From a bacterium (GTDB lineage: Bacteria; CSSED10-310; JAJRTK01): a stretch of DNA of 36,393 nucleotides. The stretch spans positions 1 to 36,393 of the forward strand of contig JAJRTK010000389.1 in NCBI GenBank assembly GCA_024278345.1, written 5' to 3'. This document shows positions 4,075 through 36,303 of this stretch, piece by piece. Made by a program: the position numbers and the translations under genes. The notes under the pieces are model-generated. The model made no database searches and was not told where the DNA came from. It saw nothing but the letters and a program-made list of their open reading frames with translations. Every line of letters starts with the position of its first letter. Position 1 is the first letter of the stretch.

Positions 4075-5550
4075 TCAGCTTCGAGTGATGAATCCCGCCA
4101 GGTATTGTTTGGCCTGTTTTGGATTTGCCATGGCGAGCTTGAGGGATGCGACGGGGTTTTTCAGGACACGACGGAGAAAGCCCTTTCGGCGTGCTTCATG
4201 CTTGCGCCAGGTTTCGTAAGCGTGGCGGAGGAAGTCCTCGAGTTCTTGAGCAGAAACCCGGTCGGCTCGCACGACGCACTGGGACAGGCCATCATAGGCG
4301 CTGAAGTCCGTGGTCATGAGGAGGTTCCGTTCCCGGGCATACTCATAGAACTCCGTCCCTGGAAAGGGGGTGGAGATGGAGAACTGGACGGTATGAGGGT
4401 TGAGTTCCAGGGCGAGGTCTAGCGTTTCCTGCATGGTTTTGCGGGTTTCGCCGATGAGGCCGAAGGAGAAGGTCAGGTGGGTCTTGATGCCCAGGTCGTG
4501 GGTGAAGGCGACCGTATCCCGAAGAACCTGAAGGTTCAAACGCTTCCCGCAGTCATCGACGATCTTCTGGTTCCCCGATTCGACTCCGTATTTGACGGCG
4601 TGGAGACCGGCTTTTCGCAGTTTTTCCAGCACACTCTTTTTGAGTGTATCGGCGCGGCACATGGCGCCCCAAGGGATCTGCTCCAGGCCTCGGGAGATGA
4701 TTTCGTCGGCGAAGTCGCTGAGGCGCCTGTTGCCGATGTTCCACGTGTCGTCGTCGAAGTAGTAGGATTTGTAGGGGAAAGGATCGTGGCGGAACATCTG
4801 CTCGATTTCGTCGGCCATGTACTTGGCGGAAAAGACGCGGTAGCGGTGATCCTTGTAGACGACCTGGGGCCAGACGCAGAAGTTGCAGGTATAGGGACAG
4901 CCCCGGGAGCCGTGGAGCTGGAGAGAGGGGCTGGGGAGATCGCCGGGGTTGTCGTAGTAGAGGGACATATCCAGCGTCGAACGGTGGGGGAAGGGAAGCT
5001 GGTCCAGGGGCTCGATGTTGGGGCGGCGGGGCTCGTGGACGATGGAGCCGCCGGGGCCGTGGCGGTGGATGAGTCCCTGCAGGCCTTGCAAGTTCTTTTT
5101 GTCGCGGATGCGTTGGGCGGCTTCCAGAACGGTGTATTCCCATTCTCCACCGGCCAGGGCGTCGAGGAAGGCGTGTTTTTCGAGGCCGTCGCTCATTTGG
5201 TTCACGTGGTGGCCTGTCATGAGCAGGAAGGCGCTCGTCTTTTCCTTGATGCTCTTGGCCCACTGGAGGTCGGTCTCGATGGAAGCCGTGGCGTTTTCCT
5301 GGACGATGAAGTCGGGCGCGAAAGAGGTGACGTTGTGGAGGTAGGAGTCATCATTTTCCTTGGTGGCGCAGCCATCGAAAATCGCCACCTCGAAACCCTC
5401 CGGCTCCAAGAGAGCGGCGGCGTAGCCAAGGTAAAAGGGAAACGGCATGTAACGATTGCCATTTTCCATAAAATGCGGCCAGCGCGAACCGGCGCGAACT
5501 CCATAGTGGCCCGGTCGTTTCCACGGCGGGTTGAGAAGAGCTACTTTCAT
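4075..5550 (-). CDS. B12-binding-domain radical SAM protein (copy 1)
   Basis: The 491-aa protein has an N-terminal cobalamin-binding-like Rossmann domain (VALLNPPW at the start, GGEWEYTVLEAA near residue 140) and a radical SAM barrel with the cluster motif GCPYTCNFC near residue 215 (CX3CX2C). The classical DxHxxG cobalamin ligand is not visible, as is normal for class B enzymes. Such enzymes methylate or rearrange unactivated carbons of natural products, lipids or sugars; the substrate is unknown. The neighbouring gene at 5588 is a paralogue, 37 nt upstream, and both share RAGSRWP near the N-terminus. Glycosyltransferase and epimerase neighbours suggest a glycan or glycolipid target. The ATG at 5550 is preceded by AGAGAGGA. 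Confidence 0.9.
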   Translation of the reverse strand: MKVALLNPPWKRPGHYGVRAGSRWPHFMENGNRYMPFPFYLGYAAALLEPEGFEVAIFDGCATKENDDSYLHNVTSFAPDFIVQENATASIETDLQWAKSIKEKTSAFLLMTGHHVNQMSDGLEKHAFLDALAGGEWEYTVLEAAQRIRDKKNLQGLQGLIHRHGPGGSIVHEPRRPNIEPLDQLPFPHRSTLDMSLYYDNPGDLPSPSLQLHGSRGCPYTCNFCVWPQVVYKDHRYRVFSAKYMADEIEQMFRHDPFPYKSYYFDDDTWNIGNRRLSDFADEIISRGLEQIPWGAMCRADTLKKSVLEKLRKAGLHAVKYGVESGNQKIVDDCGKRLNLQVLRDTVAFTHDLGIKTHLTFSFGLIGETRKTMQETLDLALELNPHTVQFSISTPFPGTEFYEYARERNLLMTTDFSAYDGLSQCVVRADRVSAQELEDFLRHAYETWRKHEARRKGFLRRVLKNPVASLKLAMANPKQAKQYLAGFITRS

Positions 5551-5587: not shown

Positions 5588-7129
5588 TCAATCCTTACCC
5601 AGCGCCATGGCGTGGAGACTCTCCGGCCACAAAAGCCCGAATCCCCGCTTCAGGCGTCCTTTGAATCCCTTCCAACCCTGTCCTCGGAAGACGCGGCCCA
5701 TGGTGCGCATCTGCCGCAGCACCCACCGCGGTTGCCGGAGTTTGCGCCGGAGCCAGCGGCCTCCTGCCGTGAGCTCGAACTCCTCCATGAAGCGGGGATC
5801 GACTTCCGTGTAGCGGACCACCGAGGTGCTGGCGCCGTCGAATTCCGCCCAGTTCTCCGTGAGGAGGCGGCCTTCCTTTTTGACCTTCTCATAGAAACGC
5901 GTGCCGGGAAAGGGGGTCGTAATGCTGAACTGGACTGAATCGACGTCCAGGCGGCAGGCGTACTCGAAGGTCCGTTCGATGCTTTCGCGGGTGTCGCCGG
6001 AGAGCCCGAAGCTCACCGTCATGTGGGTCTTGATCCCTAGGCTCGTCGCGGTTTTTACCACTCGTTCCAGCTTGGGAAGCTTCACAGGTTTCTGGATCTC
6101 CTTGAGGATCCTTGGATCCGCGCTCTCCAGCCCGAATTTCATGCCGATGCAACCCGCAGCGGCCATGGTTTCCAGCATCTTTTCCGTCGACGCCATGGCG
6201 TCACCCATGACGGACCAAGGCACCTTGAGACCCCGGGACCGAATCTCGTCGCATAAAGCAAAGACGTGCTTGGAATTGACCGTGAACGTATCGTCGTCAA
6301 AATAGATCTCCCTGGCGCCGTATCGCTCCACCGCCTCCACCATCTCGTCCACGACGCGCTTAGGCGAAAAGACCCGGTAGCGCCCGCCGCCGTACATCAC
6401 CTGGATCCAGAGACAGAAATCGCACCGGAACGGGCAGCCCCGGCTGGCGTGAAGCTGGACCGCCGGCCGGTGCTGGCAAAACCCGTCGTGGTAGAGGCTC
6501 AGGTCGTTGCACTCGTTGGAGGGAAACAAATGGCGCGCCGGATGCGGTAGCTCATCGACGGGGTTGATCTCCCTGCCCCGCCGACCACCAGCCGGTTTCC
6601 CATCCGCGGCGCGGTAGGCGATGCCGTCCAAGTCGTCCAGGGAATTGTCGTCTCTCAGCCGCCGAGCCAGTTCCAGGAAAGTCATCTCGTATTCGCCTAC
6701 CAACACGAAATCCACGTGCTCGTGCTCCGAGAGGGTTTCCGTGGGGAATTCCGTCACGTGCGGCCCTGCCAGGGCGATCCGAGCTCCCGTGGCCTCCCGG
6801 AGGCGGGCCGAGGTTTCCACGTCCCGGTGGATCGTCGGGGTGCTGGTTTCAAACAAGATGAGGTCGGGCTGGATCGCCGAAACCCTCCGGTGGAACTCCG
6901 GTTCCGTCAAGTTCAGCGGAATCCCGTCCAGGGCCTGGACGTCAAAGTCGTCCCGTTCCAAGAGTGCCGCGGAATAGGCCAGATAGAAGGGAAAAGGAGC
7001 GTAGCGAGGCAGTTCGTCCACCCGTTTGACCAGCGACCAGGGCCAACGGCTCCCAGCCCGGATGAAAAAACGCTCCTTGCCGCCGCCCAGCGAGGTTCGG
7101 CAAGGAGGATTGGCCAGCAGGATTCGCAT
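5588..7129 (-). CDS. B12-binding-domain radical SAM protein (copy 2)
   Basis: The 513-aa protein is organised like its downstream neighbour: MRILLANPPC opens the cobalamin-binding-like domain, GPHVTEFPTETLSE and LVGEYEMTFLELARRL close it, and GCPFRCDFC near residue 230 supplies the three [4Fe-4S]-binding cysteines. Later FDDDTF, LESADPRIL and ITTPFPGT segments match the paralogue position by position. An internal signature RAGSRWPWS is shared near the N-terminus. The reaction is probably a cobalamin-assisted methylation or rearrangement; two copies may act in sequence on one substrate or at two sites. The start ATG at 7129 places the first motif at residue 2. Confidence 0.9.
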   Translation of the reverse strand: MRILLANPPCRTSLGGGKERFFIRAGSRWPWSLVKRVDELPRYAPFPFYLAYSAALLERDDFDVQALDGIPLNLTEPEFHRRVSAIQPDLILFETSTPTIHRDVETSARLREATGARIALAGPHVTEFPTETLSEHEHVDFVLVGEYEMTFLELARRLRDDNSLDDLDGIAYRAADGKPAGGRRGREINPVDELPHPARHLFPSNECNDLSLYHDGFCQHRPAVQLHASRGCPFRCDFCLWIQVMYGGGRYRVFSPKRVVDEMVEAVERYGAREIYFDDDTFTVNSKHVFALCDEIRSRGLKVPWSVMGDAMASTEKMLETMAAAGCIGMKFGLESADPRILKEIQKPVKLPKLERVVKTATSLGIKTHMTVSFGLSGDTRESIERTFEYACRLDVDSVQFSITTPFPGTRFYEKVKKEGRLLTENWAEFDGASTSVVRYTEVDPRFMEEFELTAGGRWLRRKLRQPRWVLRQMRTMGRVFRGQGWKGFKGRLKRGFGLLWPESLHAMALGKD

Positions 7130-11781: not shown

Positions 11782-12613
11782 GGGTATGCACCTAAGCCGG
11801 GACACACGACAAAACCAGAAAAAGCCGCGCAGCGTACAAAAATGTGGGCTGGGATCCCGTTGCCCTTCGTTGCAACGGGAAGATGAGCTAGCTCCCTGGT
11901 GGGTGCGGAGCAAAGCCCTGCCAGGGGACTGGGGACGGAGTCCCCAGACGACCGCCGGGGAACGCGAGGCGTGACCCTTCGAGTCACGGGGTATCCACGT
12001 AAGGCGGGACACTGAAGAAACGTAAGAAAAAGGCGTGCAGCGCACAAAATGTACGTCCAGGGAGCAAGCTCCCTGGTGGGTGCAGGGCGAAGCCTTGCCA
12101 GGGGACCGGGGACGGCGTCCCCGGACGACCGCCGAGCAACGCGAGGCGCCGGCAGAACGTAAAAGAGTATCGAATTGTCCCGCCTTAACGAGCATGATCC
12201 CGGCGACCACACCCCGGAAGATGAAAGTGGAAGGCGCGGAGCGCCATGACCACGCCGTCGAAGATGGATTCAACCATGTACTTTCATGGTACGTGGATAC
12301 CCGAGTCACGCAAACGTGACCCGCCGAGCAGCGCGAGGCGCTGCCCGGACGATTGGCATTACCACAATCCATGAAGTGTCCCGCTTTACGTGGATACCCC
12401 CCATTGTCCCGCCTTGAGTGGATACCCTTGCCTTTCATTGCAACGGGTCCCGCGAGCTCCCTGGTGGGTGCAGGGCAAAGCCCTAGGCGTGCGGGCCGGA
12501 AGGCCCGCACGCCAACCCCCGGTTTCCGGAGTCTCCGGACAACCGCTGAGCAAATCGAGGCGCCAGAGAGCCTCGAGTTGTCCCACCTTACGTGGATATC
12601 CGGGTCCGCCACA
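11782..12613 (+). repeat. Cluster of family B palindromic elements
   Basis: Three or four truncated or nested copies lie head to tail with no gene. Left ends read GGGTATGCACCTAAGCCGGGACA (11782) and GGGTATCCACGTAAGGCGGGACA (11988). Right ends read TGTCCCGCTTTACGTGGATACC, TGTCCCGCCTTGAGTGGATACC and TGTCCCACCTTACGTGGATATCC (around 12378, 12405 and 12582). Inside are the hairpins CCCGTTGC/GCAACGGG, CCAGGGAGC/GCTCCCTGG, CAGGGC/GCCCTG, CTGGGGAC/GTCCCCAG and a perfect 12-bp stem GGCGTGCGGGCC-GGAA-GGCCCGCACGCC (12486-12513). All copies point the same way. ORFs shown across this stretch are repeat translations. Confidence 0.85.
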
Positions 12614-15732: not shown

Positions 15733-16317
15733 ATGAAATATAGTGGGTTATGGAACCCTGCCGCCCAGTCGGCGAAAAGCATTTTCGCTGGCTTCTTCGC
15801 CCTTTCTATCGCCGTTTTCACTGCGTCTGGACCCGCGGAAGCGAAGTCCCTCCTGACTTTGGAGCAGGCCCTCAAGGAAACATTTTCCGGCCAAAGAATC
15901 CAAGAGGAAGCGCTCTTCCTCTCCGACGACCAGGTGCGACGGATCGAGAAAACGGCCCGGGCACGCCAAGAAAGTCGCGTCCTCACGCGGTACACAGCTT
16001 TTCAGGAACAAAAGATCGCCGGCTACGCCTACATCGACACCCACGTGGTCCGCACCATGCCCGAGACCCTCCTTGTGGTCCTCAATCCGGACGGCTCCAT
16101 CCGGGAGGTCCTCATTCTGGCCTTCGCCGAGCCCGACGACTACCGGCCCAGGCCCAGATGGCTCAAAACCCTCCGAGGCCGGGACCTTGGATCGGACCTT
16201 TGGCCCGGCCGCGGTGTTCCGAAAGTCACTGGGGCCACCTTGACGGTCCAGGCAATATCGGACGCGGTACGCCGGCTGCTCGCCCTCCATCAGGTCACTA
16301 TGGAGGATGGCTCGTGA
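15733..16317 (+). CDS. Exported FMN-binding domain protein, likely ApbE substrate
   Basis: The 194-aa protein has a signal peptide (AKSIFAGFFALSIAVFTASGPAEA) and a C-terminal FMN-binding domain with the flavinylation motif VTGATLT (about residues 165-171), where ApbE attaches FMN through a phosphoester to the final Thr. The domain is the one found in NqrC/RnfG and in many stand-alone extracytoplasmic flavoproteins. An RnfG-style transmembrane anchor is absent apart from the signal. It likely shuttles electrons in the periplasm. AGGA precedes the ATG at 15733. Its stop overlaps the next gene's GTG start (GTGA), and apbE follows one gene later, fitting a self-contained flavinylation operon. Confidence 0.85.
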   Translation: MKYSGLWNPAAQSAKSIFAGFFALSIAVFTASGPAEAKSLLTLEQALKETFSGQRIQEEALFLSDDQVRRIEKTARARQESRVLTRYTAFQEQKIAGYAYIDTHVVRTMPETLLVVLNPDGSIREVLILAFAEPDDYRPRPRWLKTLRGRDLGSDLWPGRGVPKVTGATLTVQAISDAVRRLLALHQVTMEDGS

Positions 16318-16799
16318 ACTACATGGCGAATGGCGGATTTCGGCGCAACCCGCTCATGCGGCTCACCCTGGCGTTGACTCTGGTCTTGCTGGCGGGCTTC
16401 GCCATCACCATGGCGGCACTTTATTTCGCCAAGATGGGCTTCTCTCCGGAGTCAGTTGTCGATTATTACCGCGGTTCCAACATCAGTTATCGCCCTCCTC
16501 GATCCTATCAGTCGATGTTGGAGGTGACCCACGGCCACCTGGCCATGATGGCCATGGTTCTCCTGGTTTTGACTCACCTGGTGATTTTCCTGCCCACGCG
16601 CCGCGGCGCGAAGGTTGCCATCATCGTGGCCACCTTTGGAAGCGCCCTTTTCGGGGAAGCCTCCAGTTGGCTGGTGAGGTTCGTCCATCCCGGATTCGCC
16701 CTCCTCAAGGTGCTGAGCTTCGTCACTCTGGAGCTCTGTTTACTTGGGCTTCTGGGAGCGTTGGCGGCCTTTCTTTGGCGCGGAGGAAACCGGTCATGA
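16314..16799 (+). CDS. Four-helix membrane protein with membrane-edge histidines
   Basis: The 161-aa protein is not one I recognise. It has four predicted transmembrane segments (about residues 16-37, 72-93, 98-120, 124-150) and a roughly 35-residue loop between the first two. Histidines sit at both ends of helix 2 (VTHGHLAMMAMVLLVLTH) and before helix 4 (RFVHPG), a spacing that could ligate b-type haem, by analogy with small cytochrome-b-like electron carriers. Start GTG 16314 overlaps the previous stop by 4 nt and has GGAGG 7 nt upstream; ATG 16323 is too far from that site. Its stop overlaps the apbE ATG (ATGA). Coupling on both sides argues that it partners the flavoprotein, perhaps passing electrons from quinol to FMN. 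Confidence 0.7.
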   Translation: MNYMANGGFRRNPLMRLTLALTLVLLAGFAITMAALYFAKMGFSPESVVDYYRGSNISYRPPRSYQSMLEVTHGHLAMMAMVLLVLTHLVIFLPTRRGAKVAIIVATFGSALFGEASSWLVRFVHPGFALLKVLSFVTLELCLLGLLGALAAFLWRGGNRS

Positions 16800-18460
16800 C
16801 CAAGATGAAGGGGGATCACCCCATGGGTTGCGCATTTCGTGTTGAGTTCCGCTCCCATCGGCGGCAATCCGTCCGCCGCTGTTCGCCATCTTCACCCCTC
16901 GTGGTATCCACTACCCTGGGGCCAAGGCACCATCGGGGTTTTTGCTCTCTAGCGGTGATTCCCCTTTTTCTGGTCTTCATGGCGGCCCACGCTTTCGCGG
17001 ATGGTGATGGCGGGGAACCGGTTCCCCGAAGTTCCGCGAAAGAGGAAGTCCCGCAACCCCAAAAGATGTGGGTCCAGGGAGTGAGCTCCCTGGTGGGTGC
17101 GGGGCAAAGCCCTGCCAGGGGCGGGAAGCCGAGCGTCAGCGAGACGCGGCCCACAGGGCCGCAGCCGGAGTCCCCGGACTCCCGCCGAGCAAAGCGAGGC
17201 GACGCTCCCGCACCCGAAAACGGAGGACTTATCCGAAAAAGAGAGCCTCCCCAAAAGATGTGGGTCCAGGGAGCGAGCTCCCTGGTGGGTGCAGGGCAAA
17301 GCCCTGCCAGGGGACGGGGGACGGAGTCCCCGGACTCCCGCCGAGCAAAGCGAGGCGAAAACCCCCGCCGAGCAAAGCGAGGCGAAAACCCCCGCCGAGC
17401 AAAGCGAGGCGAAAACCCCCGCCGAGCAAAGCGAGGCGCGGCTCAACGGGCCGCAGCCGGAGTCCCTGGACAACCGTCTTCTCCGGGGGGCCCGGGTGCC
17501 AAACTATTCAACCGAACCTGGTATATCATGGGGACATTGCTGGAAGTCCGTATAGAAGGCCTTCCCGCCCCGGTTGCCTCCAAGGCGGCCCGGATGGTAT
17601 GGAAAGCCGTCCATGAGGTGGATGGCAAAATGTCGACCTATCGTTCCGACAGCGACGTGAGCCTCCTCCAGGGGGACGAGTGCCGCCCGGTGAGCAAGGC
17701 GACGGCGGAAGTTATCCGTTTTTCCCTGGAGCTTTGTGAGAAGAGTGGCGGCGCCTTCGATATGACCGTGGGACCTCTGGTCCGGGCCTGGGGTTTCAAG
17801 GGCGGGAAGGGGCGGAGGCCTTCTCCCGTCGAACTGGAAACCGCCATGAAGCGGATCGGGTGCCACAAGGTAAGGCTTCAGTCCAGTCCGCTCGGTGTTT
17901 GTCTAGCCCGTGGCAGCGCCATCGACCTTGGAGGGGTTGCCAAGGGATATGCCCTGGATCGCGCCCGAGCCGTGCTCCGCCCACTTGGCGTGAAGCGGGC
18001 CCTTCTTGACTTTGGAGGGCAGATCCAGACGCTGGGAAAGAACCACGCCATCGCGGTGGCCGATCCTTTGGCGCCGGATCGAACACTGGCGGTTTTTGGG
18101 GTCTCGGAGCGTTCGGTGGCGACCTCATCGGCGGCGGAGCGATGGGTGGAGATTGATGGCGAGAGGTTCGGGCATTTGCTCGATCCCCGGACAGGCGGTC
18201 CAGCCAGCGGAATGCTGTCAGCGACGGTGGTTCATCCATCCGCCATGGTTGCCGATGGACTTGCCACGGCACTTTTCGTTTCGGGGTCCGCCGGTCTGGA
18301 ATGGGCCGTGGAGCAGTTTCCCAGGGCCGGATTCTTACTGGTCCGGGGCCAGCCCGGCCAAAGGTCCTTGGAACCTGAAGATATCGTTATCGCCGGGGTT
18401 CTCGGATCGGAACCTTCACTGAGACTTTTTCCCGGCGGCGAAAAATCTCTTGGACTTTGA
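16796..18460 (+). CDS. apbE: ApbE, FAD:protein FMN transferase, with repeat-derived N-terminal insert
   Basis: The 554-aa protein carries a complete ApbE domain from about residue 237 (FNRTWYIMGTLLEVRIEG) to the end, with DLGGVAKGYALDRA, GHLLDPRTGG and MVADGLATALF, all hallmarks of the Mg-dependent periplasmic enzyme that transfers FMN from FAD to a Thr in target proteins. Family members are usually about 330-350 aa. The extra residues are a family A repeat (about 15-30, VEFRSHRRQSVRR), a delayed signal peptide (about 44-68) and two family B repeats with 27-bp tandem units (about 88-230), all in frame. ATG 16796 overlaps the preceding stop and has GGAGG 9 nt upstream, so the long form appears real. 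The natural substrate is probably the FMN-binding protein two genes upstream. Confidence 0.9.
   Translation: MTKMKGDHPMGCAFRVEFRSHRRQSVRRCSPSSPLVVSTTLGPRHHRGFCSLAVIPLFLVFMAAHAFADGDGGEPVPRSSAKEEVPQPQKMWVQGVSSLVGAGQSPARGGKPSVSETRPTGPQPESPDSRRAKRGDAPAPENGGLIRKREPPQKMWVQGASSLVGAGQSPARGRGTESPDSRRAKRGENPRRAKRGENPRRAKRGENPRRAKRGAAQRAAAGVPGQPSSPGGPGAKLFNRTWYIMGTLLEVRIEGLPAPVASKAARMVWKAVHEVDGKMSTYRSDSDVSLLQGDECRPVSKATAEVIRFSLELCEKSGGAFDMTVGPLVRAWGFKGGKGRRPSPVELETAMKRIGCHKVRLQSSPLGVCLARGSAIDLGGVAKGYALDRARAVLRPLGVKRALLDFGGQIQTLGKNHAIAVADPLAPDRTLAVFGVSERSVATSSAAERWVEIDGERFGHLLDPRTGGPASGMLSATVVHPSAMVADGLATALFVSGSAGLEWAVEQFPRAGFLLVRGQPGQRSLEPEDIVIAGVLGSEPSLRLFPGGEKSLGL
16838..16900 (+). repeat. Family A repeat inside apbE
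   Basis: GTTGAGTTCCGCTCCCATCG is followed by the hairpin CGGCGG-CAATCCGT-CCGCCG. It is the same core as 11635 and 30885 and is read in frame between the apbE start codon and its signal peptide. Confidence 0.7.
17055..17475 (+). repeat. Two family B cores inside apbE
   Basis: CCCCAAAAGATGTGGGTCCA occurs at about 17057 and again at about 17248, each followed by CCAGGGAG..CTCCCTGG, GGGCAAAGCCC and GAGTCCCCGGACTCCCGCCGA. The terminal GTGGATACC-type ends are missing, so only the palindromic cores are present. The reading frame stays open throughout. Confidence 0.85.
17337..17438 (+). repeat. 27-bp tandem repeat, four units, in frame
   Basis: Units start at 17337, 17364, 17391 and 17418 with CCCGCCGAGCAAAGCGAGGC followed by GAAAAC; the last unit is partial. 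Each full unit encodes RRAKRGENP (nine residues), so copy-number change would not shift the apbE frame. Confidence 0.95.
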
Positions 18461-18622: not shown

Positions 18623-21600
18623 CTAGCCCGGAAGCTTCTCCGACGGGAAATCATCGATCTCCGCCCCGTCAAATTCCGGTGGAGCGAGAGGTTGGGCGAT
18701 TTCCGATGCGCGGTCGAGCCATTCCAGGAGGCGATTCTTGAGCCGCCGACCGTCGTTCCAAAGATTGGGGAGTCCCATGGCGCGGCGCTGCGTCTCATAG
18801 TCCTCGATTTGCCTCAAGGATTCTTCCAGGGCGGAGGCCTCACTTGCCTCCAGGGGCTGGACTCGCCGATCGATGGAACCGATGGCTATCGCGGCGGTGA
18901 TTTCGGCTCCCACAAGCAGGCTTTGAAGCTGCAGCCAACGGTTTTCGCATTGATCGATCCTGGCTTCGAGGTGAGCCAGACGTTCAGCCGCCATGTCCGG
19001 CGACCCACTCCGGGCAAGAGCCGTACAGTTTCCAAGGCGTGCGTCCAACTCTAGGAAAGGGCAACCGGCGGCTCGGGTCCGCTTGGCCACGTGCTCGAAA
19101 ATTTGGATTGCCCGGGCGTAGTCCTGGGATTCCAGGGAGACATATCCAAGTTGTCCAAGTTGCTCCAGCGCTTCCAGAACGAGCTTGGATTCAAAGAGTT
19201 GCCGAACGGAGCGGTTGAAGCTCTGTCGTGCCACGGAGGTTTGGCCATGCTTGTTCAGAAGGCGTCCCATCAGTCCCATGATGCGGGCGGAGCCAGGGAC
19301 GCAACCCACTTGCTTGTAAAGGCGGCGCGCCTGTTTGATCTCGGCGAAGGCCTCCCTTTCGTCTCCCACGTCAAGAAGGAGCTTGGCTAGCGCTTCCCGA
19401 GCGCGGGCCTCTGGGATCTTGAGGCCTAGCGCTCCGAACTCCTTTCGGGCCTCCCGCAGGATTGCTTGAGCTTCGCGCCATTCTCCCAGGCTTGCGGCGG
19501 CGCGGCCAAGGCCAAGGCGTGCCCGGGCGGCTTCTTCTTTCGCCTTTTCCAGTTGTGTCAGGCGCTCGTTGGCTCGGCGGTAGGCCTCCATGGCACGGCG
19601 GATTTGCCCCGATCCCAGCCAGGCATCGGCTTGCCGGCGGCGCGCCATCTCGATTCCCTGCTTCTTGTTTTGGTCGCCGAATAGGACGAAGCCTCGCTTG
19701 GCAAGACGTTCCGCCTCGCTGATCCAGCCCCCCAGCAGGTGAGCTGACGACAGCTCCACAAGACAGCCTGCCTTTTCCGCTGCCGCCGAGCCAAGTTGCT
19801 GGTAGAGTTCATCGGCTTTTCGGAGGGTTTCCAGGGCAAGGGGCACACGTTCCATCGCCAGGTGGAGACGCCCGATGCGCCGGAGGACCGAGGCCTCTTT
19901 CGAGGTGTCGTCAAGCCAGAGCCGGATTTGGCGGCACTGGTCAAGGTAGTGGAGCGCTTCCCCGCTTTGGCCCGCCATGGAGTAGAGCTCGGAGAGGCTT
20001 TCCAGGGTCCAGGCTTCGGCGATGCGCGAGCCCATGGAGCGGAAGCCCTGTCGCGCTTCTTTCTGGACTTCTATTGCCCGATCAATGCGCCCCAACTCTT
20101 GAAGGAGCTCTCCGAATCGGCTGAGAGTTTGAGCCCTCAGGTTGGTTTTAGAGAGATCGGCGAAGAGATCGGCGGCCGTTTCGAAGCATTGCACGGCCTC
20201 CTCGAACCGCTGAATGCGGTGGTAGACTCGGCCGAGCTCTTTGAGCATGATCGCCTTCCAAAGCGGGTCGTCGGCCTGTTCGGCCCTTTGGAGCCCCTGC
20301 TCGTAGGTTTCCATGGAAACCTCGATTTCGCCTTTTTGGGCGCGGAGGCGGGCAAGTTGTTGCAGAGCCTTAGCTTCGGCGATAGGGTCGTCGAGCTGCT
20401 GCGACAATAGGCGCGCCCGGGTGAGGGAGCGTTGCGCCGCGGCAAGATCGCCGACTCGCCGGAGTAGGTTGCCCAATTCCAGCTCGGCTCGCTGCTCCAA
20501 GGCGCCGCCCTCGTGGGTCTTGGAGCGCCGTGCGGCTAAAACGGCCCAGCGCAGGTGGAAGCGGGCCGTTTCATCGGCGCGGGTTGCCGCGGCCCAGCTT
20601 CCCAGTTCCAGGTGGAGCTCGGCAGCGACGGGCCACCGTTCCGTCTGGAGCGCCAGGCGGCCAAGGAGATCGGCCTCGAAGGGGTCGAGTCCTCCAGATC
20701 GACGAACCAGGGTCCAGACAGTACGCTCCGGGAGGTCGTCGCCGGTCCCTTTTGGAGGAGTGCCTTCGCTGTGGCCTGGAGCCCCGATCTCCAGAGAGCT
20801 TTTCCCAGTGGGAGTGAGTAGATCGGCAATGGAAGCGTGGGTCAACCCTAGGACAGTTCCTTCCTGTCGCGTGAGCTCCAGGCGGTTGAGGCGTTCGATG
20901 GCATCCAGCACTTCTTTTTCCGGGATTTCCAGGATCTCGCCCAGCAGGGCACAAGGGATTCGGCCTCCCACGCGGATGATGGCGGAGAGCAACCGTTTAG
21001 AGGCCGAGTCCAGGCCTCGGATCTCGGTGCGGAAAAAGAATTTCCAAAGCTCGTTTCCCTGCTGGAGCGGTCGAGCATCAATTTGCAGGACAAAGCGCCA
21101 GTTTTTTCGGTGCGTCAAATAGCCGCTCCTGGCGAGCCATCGAACGTAGCTCATCGCCAGCGCGGGATTGCCTTCGCTTCCGGAAAGGATCCTGGTGACC
21201 AGCGATTCCGGCGCTTTTTCGCAAAGAACGGCAGCCAGGTAGAGCTCCAGTTCTTCCCGGTTCATGGGCTCCAGCTTGAGTTGCCGGCAGCCCGGTAGTT
21301 TTTCCAGTTTTCGTGCCAGCTCCGAAGAAGCCTCGGCCTCTCGATCCAAGCTCAAGACCAGCAGCAAGGGGGGCGGGCTTTTTGTGTCGTGCTCTTTTTG
21401 CAGGATTTGCCGTGCAAGCCGATACCAAAGTTGACGGCTTCTTTCGTCGGCAAGGTGGCAATCATCGAGCAGAAGGGCCACGGGGCCGTGGGAGGCAAAT
21501 CGCTGGAGAAGCTCGTGGGCCACGCCTCCGATTTCGGCGAAGATGTCCCGATCCGATTCGTCCAGGGGTCGCTCTTCCGGTTCGGGCCAAATCAGATCTT

Positions 21601-23089
21601 CAATGGGCCGGAGGGGAGCCAGGAAGCTTTCTGGAGGCCGGAGCCCTTCCCCCGGGTTTCCGTGGATGCGAAGGCTTGGAAGAGCACGAAGCCGGGTTGT
21701 GGAGGCTGAGCTCTTGGACGACCGGTTTTCCGCGGTGTGGCCGCCCCGCCCAAACAGGGAGCGGCGACCTGTCTCCCGCGGGACGGCCGCGGGCTGCTGG
21801 CTGGCGCGGACTGCTTCAGCGATTCGCCTGGGCCACCAGGCGGGCGGCTCTTGCCAAACCGGACTCTTTTCGGCGGAGTCATCTTCTTTCGCCGCGTCTT
21901 CTTCTCCAAGAAGAGCCTTTGTCGCGGCCTGTTTCTCCTGTCTGTGCCGCGCCCATTCGGGATCCTCTAGGGCTGCAAGTTGTTCCAGTAACTCCCGAAG
22001 AAGCGGCCGGACGGTGCTATAGGCCAGCTTATCAACGTTGCGGCAGACCAGCCGGAAGACCCGGCAATTCCGCGTGGAGAGCCAATCTTCCGCGGCATCC
22101 AGAAGCGCTGTCTTGCCCATCCCGGGAGATCCTTCAACCAGAAGCACCGTGCGCCGGCCTTCCAAAAACGCTCCCAGGCTCTGTCTCACCGTTTCCACGG
22201 CCAGGTTTCTGCCTGCCACCCCAGGATTGGCCACGCGGAAACTGGAATCGGGCTCGGGCCGAGTCCGGCGTTGCATGGGACGATGCGTTCCCAAGGCTTC
22301 GAGGAGCGCCTGTCCAAACGCCTTCGCTGACTCGTATCGGTCGTTTGGTTTCTTGGCCAGAGCACGGGCAATGAAGTCGTCGAAAACCTCCGGTAGCATC
22401 GGATTCAAACTCGTGGGCGCCGGCACCGGCGCCGTCAGGTGCCGCAACCGAAGACCTTCGCCCTCCTCCCCGTCGAAGGGGTGCTGACCAAGGAGAAGCT
22501 CGAACAAGAGAATACCCGCGGCATAAAGGTCAGCCCTGAGATCCACTCTCCGGCCGAAAACCTGCTCTGGCGCAGCGTATGCCGGATCGGCGGGCAGCTC
22601 TCCCCTCGCACCGAGCTCGCTGCCGTAAGCTCCGAGCCCAAAATCGACAATCTGCAAGTTGCCTTGGGAGTCTGTGAGGATGTTCGACGGCTTCAGGGCC
22701 TGGTGAATGAAATGCTTCCGATGGAGGTCGTCTAGGATATTCAGAAGATCGGTGATGGCCAGTAACGTCCCATGCCAGGCCTCGGCGGAAAGCGCCCGAT
22801 CCTGCCGTTGCACCGCAACCTGAGAAAGGCTGATCCCTGTTAGGAGCGGCATGCTGTAGCCGAATTCACCGCCCTCCTTCCAGGACTCCAAAATAGGTGC
22901 GACGCCGGGGACCTCCAAAGATCGAAAGGCGTGGAGCCGGCGCTGGAACGCCCAGACAGCCTCGGGCGGAAGAGGCCGGATGAGCTTGACGGCAACCGAC
23001 GACCGCCGTTTTCGGTCGTAAGCCTTGTAAACCATCCCCAGAGTGCCACTGCCAAGTTTTTCCACAAGCTCCAAGTGGGACGGAATCAT
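18623..23089 (-). CDS. Ser/Thr kinase-like domain + AAA ATPase + TPR protein; HRD Asp missing
   Basis: The 1488-aa protein has three parts. Residues 6-270 form a Hanks-type kinase fold with glycine loop GSGTLGMV, the ATP-binding Lys35 in VAVK, DFG (149-151) and APE. The catalytic loop reads HQALKPSN instead of HRDLKPxN, so the proton-acceptor Asp is Ala131. Residues about 300-800 form an AAA/STAND-like ATPase with Walker A GSPGMGKTAL (near 322) and Walker B LLLDDCH (near 541), interrupted by a low-complexity linker. Residues about 815-1400 hold many TPR repeats. The layout matches large PknK-like signalling proteins. Loss of the Asp suggests a pseudokinase acting as a nucleotide-sensing scaffold. 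Start ATG 23089 overlaps the stop of an upstream ORF remnant (ATGA). Confidence 0.88.
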   Translation of the reverse strand: MIPSHLELVEKLGSGTLGMVYKAYDRKRRSSVAVKLIRPLPPEAVWAFQRRLHAFRSLEVPGVAPILESWKEGGEFGYSMPLLTGISLSQVAVQRQDRALSAEAWHGTLLAITDLLNILDDLHRKHFIHQALKPSNILTDSQGNLQIVDFGLGAYGSELGARGELPADPAYAAPEQVFGRRVDLRADLYAAGILLFELLLGQHPFDGEEGEGLRLRHLTAPVPAPTSLNPMLPEVFDDFIARALAKKPNDRYESAKAFGQALLEALGTHRPMQRRTRPEPDSSFRVANPGVAGRNLAVETVRQSLGAFLEGRRTVLLVEGSPGMGKTALLDAAEDWLSTRNCRVFRLVCRNVDKLAYSTVRPLLRELLEQLAALEDPEWARHRQEKQAATKALLGEEDAAKEDDSAEKSPVWQEPPAWWPRRIAEAVRASQQPAAVPRETGRRSLFGRGGHTAENRSSKSSASTTRLRALPSLRIHGNPGEGLRPPESFLAPLRPIEDLIWPEPEERPLDESDRDIFAEIGGVAHELLQRFASHGPVALLLDDCHLADERSRQLWYRLARQILQKEHDTKSPPPLLLVLSLDREAEASSELARKLEKLPGCRQLKLEPMNREELELYLAAVLCEKAPESLVTRILSGSEGNPALAMSYVRWLARSGYLTHRKNWRFVLQIDARPLQQGNELWKFFFRTEIRGLDSASKRLLSAIIRVGGRIPCALLGEILEIPEKEVLDAIERLNRLELTRQEGTVLGLTHASIADLLTPTGKSSLEIGAPGHSEGTPPKGTGDDLPERTVWTLVRRSGGLDPFEADLLGRLALQTERWPVAAELHLELGSWAAATRADETARFHLRWAVLAARRSKTHEGGALEQRAELELGNLLRRVGDLAAAQRSLTRARLLSQQLDDPIAEAKALQQLARLRAQKGEIEVSMETYEQGLQRAEQADDPLWKAIMLKELGRVYHRIQRFEEAVQCFETAADLFADLSKTNLRAQTLSRFGELLQELGRIDRAIEVQKEARQGFRSMGSRIAEAWTLESLSELYSMAGQSGEALHYLDQCRQIRLWLDDTSKEASVLRRIGRLHLAMERVPLALETLRKADELYQQLGSAAAEKAGCLVELSSAHLLGGWISEAERLAKRGFVLFGDQNKKQGIEMARRRQADAWLGSGQIRRAMEAYRRANERLTQLEKAKEEAARARLGLGRAAASLGEWREAQAILREARKEFGALGLKIPEARAREALAKLLLDVGDEREAFAEIKQARRLYKQVGCVPGSARIMGLMGRLLNKHGQTSVARQSFNRSVRQLFESKLVLEALEQLGQLGYVSLESQDYARAIQIFEHVAKRTRAAGCPFLELDARLGNCTALARSGSPDMAAERLAHLEARIDQCENRWLQLQSLLVGAEITAAIAIGSIDRRVQPLEASEASALEESLRQIEDYETQRRAMGLPNLWNDGRRLKNRLLEWLDRASEIAQPLAPPEFDGAEIDDFPSEKLPG

Positions 23090-35969: not shown

Positions 35970-36303
35970 TCTCAACGTAAGCCGGGACACCCGCCAAAAC
36001 AAAGACGCAACGCGTCGTACATGAATGTGGGCTGGGATCCCGTTGCCTTTCGTTGCAACGGGAAGATGAGCGAGCTCCCTGGTGGGTGCAGGGCGAAGCC
36101 CTGCCGGGGACCGGGGCCGGAGCCCCCGGATGACCGCCGAGTAACGCGAGGCGTGACCCGCCGAGTAACGCGAGGCGTGACCCGCCGAGTAACGCGAGGC
36201 GTGACCCGCCGAGTAACGCAAACGTGACCCGCCGAGCGATAGCGAGGCGTTGGCGTTTGCAATGCCACAATCCTCGAATTGTCCCGCGTTGCGTGGATGC
36301 CCG
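35970..36303 (+). repeat. Family B element expanded by tandem units
   Basis: The left end is TCTCAACGTAAGCCGGGACA (no clear GTATCC part), the right end TGTCCCGCGTTGCGTGGATGCCC. It is highly similar to the element at 23479 (GACGCAACGCGTCGTACATGAATGTGGGC in both) but longer owing to a tandem array. The stem CCGGGGCC/GCCCCCGG has one mismatch. Confidence 0.85.
36134..36249 (+). repeat. 24-bp tandem repeat within a family B element
   Basis: Five units of CCGCCGAGTAACGCGAGGCG followed by TGAC start at 36134, 36158, 36182, 36206 and 36229; the fourth is 23 bp. It expands the same GCCGAG-N-GCGAGGC module that is expanded at 27 bp inside apbE. Sequence from 36304 to the window end is AT-richer and holds no gene that can be seen. 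Confidence 0.92.

Follow-up and report, generated by a model that had tools for sequence, protein, structure and literature searches.

A kinase-like head without the catalytic aspartate on a bacterial AAA_16-TPR protein, and its possible role as a contact output

Introduction

Bacterial kinase folds that have lost catalytic function are a known class, and we apply here the definition of a pseudokinase as a kinase fold that has lost one or more of its three catalytic residues (PMC12599244). Among the bacterial Ser/Thr kinases and pseudokinases of the CP1 family, which is linked to COG3899, about 40% are pseudokinases (O'Boyle et al. 2025, PMC12599244). The HRD and DFG aspartates are required for efficient catalysis but not strictly required for ATP binding (PMC4718504).

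A second group of relevance is formed by the STAND proteins. In those built like the protein described here, a repeat domain is the sensor, an ATPase the switch, and a terminal domain the effector, and binding of an inducer to the sensor converts a closed ADP form into an ATP-bound oligomer (PMC4381067). The effector domains occur at either end of the chain, and the Ser/Thr kinase PknK is a member (PMC4381067). In STANDs with a TPR sensor, contacts made by the arm and the sensor keep the closed form (PMC6468293).

We analyzed a 36,393-nucleotide stretch of bacterial DNA (GenBank assembly GCA_024278345.1, contig JAJRTK010000389.1, positions 1 to 36,393; hereafter, the whole of it, the window), which carries a gene for a protein with a kinase-like domain at its N terminus. 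Below, this domain is called the head.

Results

The protein combines the head, an AAA_16 ATPase that directly follows it, and a TPR array in one chain (Table 1). In a Pfam search of the protein, the head scored 106.8 bits with Pkinase (PF00069), for which the cut-off is 31.7, while the genome-wide survey gave 111.8 bits for the same domain (C321:22319-23071), and its best sequence match in the PDB was StkP (5e-30). As in STAND proteins of the PknK/MalT kind, a nucleotide-binding domain with both Walker A and Walker B is accompanied on its C-terminal side by repeats (TPR_12, seven stretches), which are presumed to be the sensor. The two Walker motifs lie 219 residues apart, compared with 116-131 in those paralogues for which both were scored, and about 90 extra residues thus separate them in the window ATPase. 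For residues ~560-860, between the ATPase and the TPRs, the Pfam search returned no separate match, and every NCBIfam equivalog scored far below its cut-off against the protein. PADLOC matches (PD-T4-6, mad6, and C3a189) fell on general kinase or TPR parts and carry no specific information on defence.

Table 1. Features of the window and their coordinates
Feature	Position	Strand	Basis or remark
Gene, 1488 aa: kinase-like head, AAA_16 ATPase, TPR array	18623..23089	-	stop-free ORF and Pfam matches
Protein-kinase-like domain, residues 7-257	22319..23071	-	Pkinase profile and AlphaFold2 fold
Lys35 (AAG), ATP-site lysine, kept	22985..22987	-	codons and alignment
alphaC Glu position, Arg51	22937..22939	-	alignments
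HQALKPSN, residues 129-136, replacing HRDLKPxN	22682..22705	-	codons and alignments
His129 (CAC)	22703-22705	-	
Gln130 (CAG), replacing Arg of HRD	22700-22702	-	
Ala131 (GCC), replacing catalytic Asp of HRD	22697-22699	-	
Asn136 (AAC), kept	22682-22684	-	
DFG, residues 149-151, metal-binding motif, kept	22637..22645	-	codons and alignment
P+1 Gly-Thr position, Ala167-Asp168	22586..22591	-	alignments
AAA_16 (STAND-like) ATPase, residues 292-561	21407..22216	-	51.6 bits, cut-off 32.6
Walker A, GSPGMGKT, residues 320-327, intact	22109..22132	-	sequence
Extra ~90 residues, low-complexity in look, absent from compared paralogues	approx. 21530-21892	-	sequence
Walker B, LLLDDCH, residues 539-545, intact	21455..21475	-	sequence
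TPR array, approx. residues 860-1340	19070..20512	-	TPR_12 103 bits, 7 stretches
ORF with ApbE domain (residues 408-669)	16307-18460	+	
Two adjacent B12-binding radical SAM-like proteins	4075-5550 and 5588-7129	-	HpnJ-related, far below its cut-off
Repeat CCGCCGAG[C/T]AA[A/C]GCGAGGCG	12129-12148; 17182-17201; 17338-17438; 36134-36201		

Among the neighbors of the gene (ApbE, DUF255/thioredoxin-like, and aminotransferase), we found no operon or functional partner, and a search for a promoter or terminator of the gene gave no convincing one. The window also carries 9 of the genome's 29 exact copies of a short interspersed repeat, CCGCCGAG[C/T]AA[A/C]GCGAGGCG, which is partly tandem, with 27-bp and 24-bp units; several of the copies outside the window lie less than ~600 bases from a contig start. 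In the ApbE frame, the repeat falls within a long N-terminal stretch, where it is translated as RRAKRG units, and the true start of this frame probably lies further in. At another place in the window, the pair of radical SAM-like proteins adjoins glycosyltransferases.

We then examined the active site of the head. The initial annotation had read HQALKPSN where HRDLKPxN is expected, with Ala131 in place of the Asp and Gln130 in place of the Arg, and had listed Lys35, Asn136, and DFG as kept. Codons and alignments bear out these statements down to the residue numbers: the HRD region aligns without gaps with the paralogues and with solved bacterial kinases, and the catalytic loop continues with Leu132 (CTG) and Lys133 (AAG). 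Thus, where an active Ser/Thr kinase has three catalytic residues, the head has the VAIK Lys (Lys35) and the DFG Asp (Asp149) but Ala131 for the HRD Asp, and, as a kinase fold with at least one of the three gone, it falls under the definition of a bacterial pseudokinase.

Two further lesions had been overlooked in the initial annotation. The alphaC Glu is replaced by Arg51, which makes the Lys-Glu salt bridge impossible in the head, and the P+1 Gly-Thr has become Ala167-Asp168; in addition, the His of the "HP" turn after alphaC is Val60. Kept are the G-loop, Lys35, Lys133, Asn136, DFG, APE, Asp187, and Arg251. The activation segment is rather short, with 27 residues from DFG to APE compared with a median of 32, a length that 6 of the 88 intact domains share or fall below. 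Since Walker A and Walker B are both intact, the damage concerns the head and spares the ATPase motifs.

To place these changes, we surveyed the kinome of the same genome (88% complete; about 100 domains in the genome list), in which 102 domains at the listed places were aligned besides that of the window. The Lys/HRD Asp/DFG Asp triad was intact in 88 of the 102. The alphaC position was E in 93 of the 100 other domains having a residue there, and, at the P+1 positions, 89 of 101 had G and 89 had T or S. Eight other domains had no HRD Asp; most of these read HGx, a convergent pattern in pseudokinases (PMC4718504), and all were widely decayed. Decay was scored at 25 positions that are at least 90% conserved among the intact domains. 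The window head departed at only four of them (E51R, H60V, D131A, and G167A), while the eight other domains without the HRD Asp departed at 6-13, so that the window head is the sole surveyed domain that lacks this Asp but has an otherwise whole-looking nucleotide site. An Asp at position 168 was seen elsewhere in one domain only, L160, which is decayed at other positions but keeps HRD; Asp168 is therefore not linked to the loss of the HRD Asp. The survey also turned up a frame of 1900 residues with two consecutive kinase-like domains (L191, G000:C509:5300-12800), the first badly decayed, with no Lys, HRD Asp, or DFG, and the second retaining HRD but decayed elsewhere.

The sequences nearest to the head were paralogues of the same kinase-AAA_16-TPR order, 33-35% identical to it, in which HRD and the alphaC Glu are kept. 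Four paralogues of its own genome (C248, C360, C262, and C454) and one locus of another (C219 of G003) are likewise kinase-AAA-TPR proteins, with ~30-34% identity over the head and the linker that follows; unlike the window head, all five have HRD, the alphaC Glu, and DFG. No orthologue of the whole protein was found in 40 relatives, none of the non-kinase part in 8 genomes of the phylum, and none in GTDB contigs, while the plasmid collection yielded, among the matches listed, just general kinases at less than 36% identity. A DNA pattern for loops of the HQA[aliphatic]KPxxN type occurred once in 386 genomes, at the window locus. In a tree of kinase domains, the terminal branch of the head measured 1.44 against a median of 0.65, about twice as long, and the head clustered with other decayed domains (support 0.74-0.94), shifting once those were omitted. 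Its place in the tree is unstable, as expected of long branches, and the long terminal branch also fits relaxed constraint.

The head was also modeled with AlphaFold2 from a shallow alignment of 4 sequences (the window protein and three related loci). Confidence was modest (mean pLDDT 66.5, pTM 0.65), with the N-lobe best. Among the best Foldseek matches to the model were PknB, PknA, and CaMKII (TM 0.67-0.74), with an E value of 1.8e-17 for PknB 6i2p. The predicted structure thus supports the kinase fold alone and is silent on ATP.

By a hand count that matched the frame lists, the genome contains ~37 kinase-AAA_16 frames. Besides the window protein, at least three of these, of the head-AAA_16-TPR order, have an HRD-less kinase head: L187 (G000:C218) and L188 (G000:C9), in which AAA_16-TPR follows the head, and L190 (G000:C56), in which AAA_16-TPR-GAF-PAS-histidine kinase follows. 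In L189 (G000:C154), an HRD-less head precedes TPR-sigma-54 activator-HTH. Other AAA_16 frames gave no kinase match (L200, C156; L201, C203; L202, C455; L203, C23), and, by eye, their N termini look nucleotide-cyclase-like, some apparently in two copies. The AAA_16/TPR chassis therefore seems to carry exchangeable heads: that the same chassis occurs with an active kinase, a dead kinase, or another head fits the notion of the head as a swappable output.

Discussion

We consider it reasonably probable that the window protein is STAND-like, with TPRs as sensor, AAA_16 as switch, and the N-terminal pseudokinase head as an output that works by protein contact. Judged by its residues, the head is predicted to be incapable of normal phosphotransfer, as it has none of the catalytic base, alphaC Glu, and P+1 Gly-Thr. 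Folding and the holding of Mg-ATP are probably preserved: binding of the nucleotide is plausible given the glycine loop, Lys35, Lys133, Asn136, and DFG, although it may be weak because the alphaC Glu is absent. With the residues for phosphate transfer lost and those for holding ATP kept, the head probably signals by binding partners and not by phosphorylating them. Since the HRD and DFG aspartates are needed for efficient catalysis but not absolutely for ATP binding, and since the STAND scheme assigns the action to a terminal domain, we propose a pseudokinase output that would come into play by contact once the ATPase is open. In such a sequence of events, the TPR part would bind an inducer, the ATPase would then open and oligomerize, and the exposed pseudokinase heads would engage another protein, acting as a scaffold or as an allosteric regulator. 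This partner might be one of the active kinases among the numerous paralogues.

The initial annotation had proposed an ATP-binding pseudokinase that gates the ATPase and TPRs joined to it. The label of pseudokinase stands, given that the HRD Asp, the alphaC Glu, and the P+1 Thr, all kept in the paralogues, are lost together here, while the direction of control does not find the same backing. In the STAND scheme, the repeats sense, the ATPase switches, and the terminal domain acts, which would make the head an output and not a gate. By this analogy, gating of the head by the ATPase and TPRs is more likely than the reverse, although gating by the head is possible.

A different view, which we regard as unlikely but worth serious weighing, is that the head is a functionless, decaying remnant of a large paralogue family, in early loss, and that the ATPase and TPRs do the work. 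The family does show a decay series, in that some of the eight other domains without the HRD Asp have lost 10-13 of the 25 conserved positions; the terminal branch of the head is long, and none of the searches for orthologues (40 relatives, 8 genomes of the phylum, GTDB contigs) lends support to its conservation. However, the frame is open across 4.5 kb, and the head keeps 21 of the 25 highly conserved positions, those for the nucleotide and the fold included. Moreover, its lesions are not random but lie in elements of phosphotransfer and substrate binding, few as these positions are.

It is rather improbable that the head is an active kinase in which a substitute base or a partner compensates for the missing Asp. 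WNK kinases, for instance, use a moved lysine. The head has Lys35, Lys133, Asn136, and DFG, and its Asp168 occupies the usual position of the P+1 Thr, which we take to adjoin the HRD Asp in known kinase structures (PKA Thr201/Asp166) and so to lie beside the place where the Asp has been lost. In addition, some pseudokinases later proved active (PMC4718504). Conversely, the alphaC Glu is gone too, the P+1 Gly is Ala167, and L160, the sole other domain with Asp168, keeps HRD. An elaborate form of the idea, in which Asp168 would act as a moved catalytic base from the activation segment, Arg51 would rewire the Lys35/phosphate site, and the kinase would be on only in the STAND oligomer, appears to us scarcely credible.

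Very doubtful, too, is catalysis of another ATP-dependent reaction by the head, such as the AMP transfer of SelO or the glutamylation of SidJ. The activities of SelO and SidJ did arise from such a pattern, in which the ATP and metal residues are retained and the catalytic Asp is lost (PMC12599244), but no resemblance to SelO or SidJ surfaced, ordinary kinases being the best matches, and the HRD region of SelO reads HGVMNTDN (PMC12599244), compared with HQALKPSN here. Finally, although the metagenome-assembled genome is in 550 contigs and a second copy of the locus was not found, deriving the head's residues from the canonical ones takes at least nine base changes (2+1+1+1+2+2) in six codons at four separate places, with the frame still open, which makes a sequencing error very unlikely, and we give an error of sequencing or assembly almost no credence.

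The pseudokinase output that we favor would offer a clean case of a pseudokinase with a near-whole ATP site, in a genome that encodes ~100 kinase domains, and would be well suited to testing if the heads of AAA_16/TPR proteins act by catalysis or by contact. General knowledge of pseudokinases is unchanged by it, and bacterial pseudokinases fused to predicted ATPases are already known, for example in the CP1 family. As in CP1, a soluble kinase-fold head is joined to a predicted ATPase, and the CP1 pseudokinases likewise have one or several motifs degraded; the likeness rests on the linked ATPase, here seen as the AAA_16 match. The window protein differs in having no FhlA/GAF or PAS, its ATPase being AAA_16 followed by TPRs. 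With Mycobacterium tuberculosis PknK and with MalT, it shares a terminal effector, an ATPase core, and a repeat sensor in a single chain (PMC4381067), but, unlike that of PknK, its head has no HRD Asp, alphaC Glu, or P+1 Gly-Thr. The pseudokinase domain of MviN (ActPs3) offers a parallel for a kinase fold that serves as a regulated site of protein binding and not as an enzyme, although MviN is a membrane protein in which VAIK and DFG are lost and ATP is not bound (PMC12599244). Against this background, the slightly unusual traits of the window head are its nearly whole ATP site and the Asp at its P+1 position.
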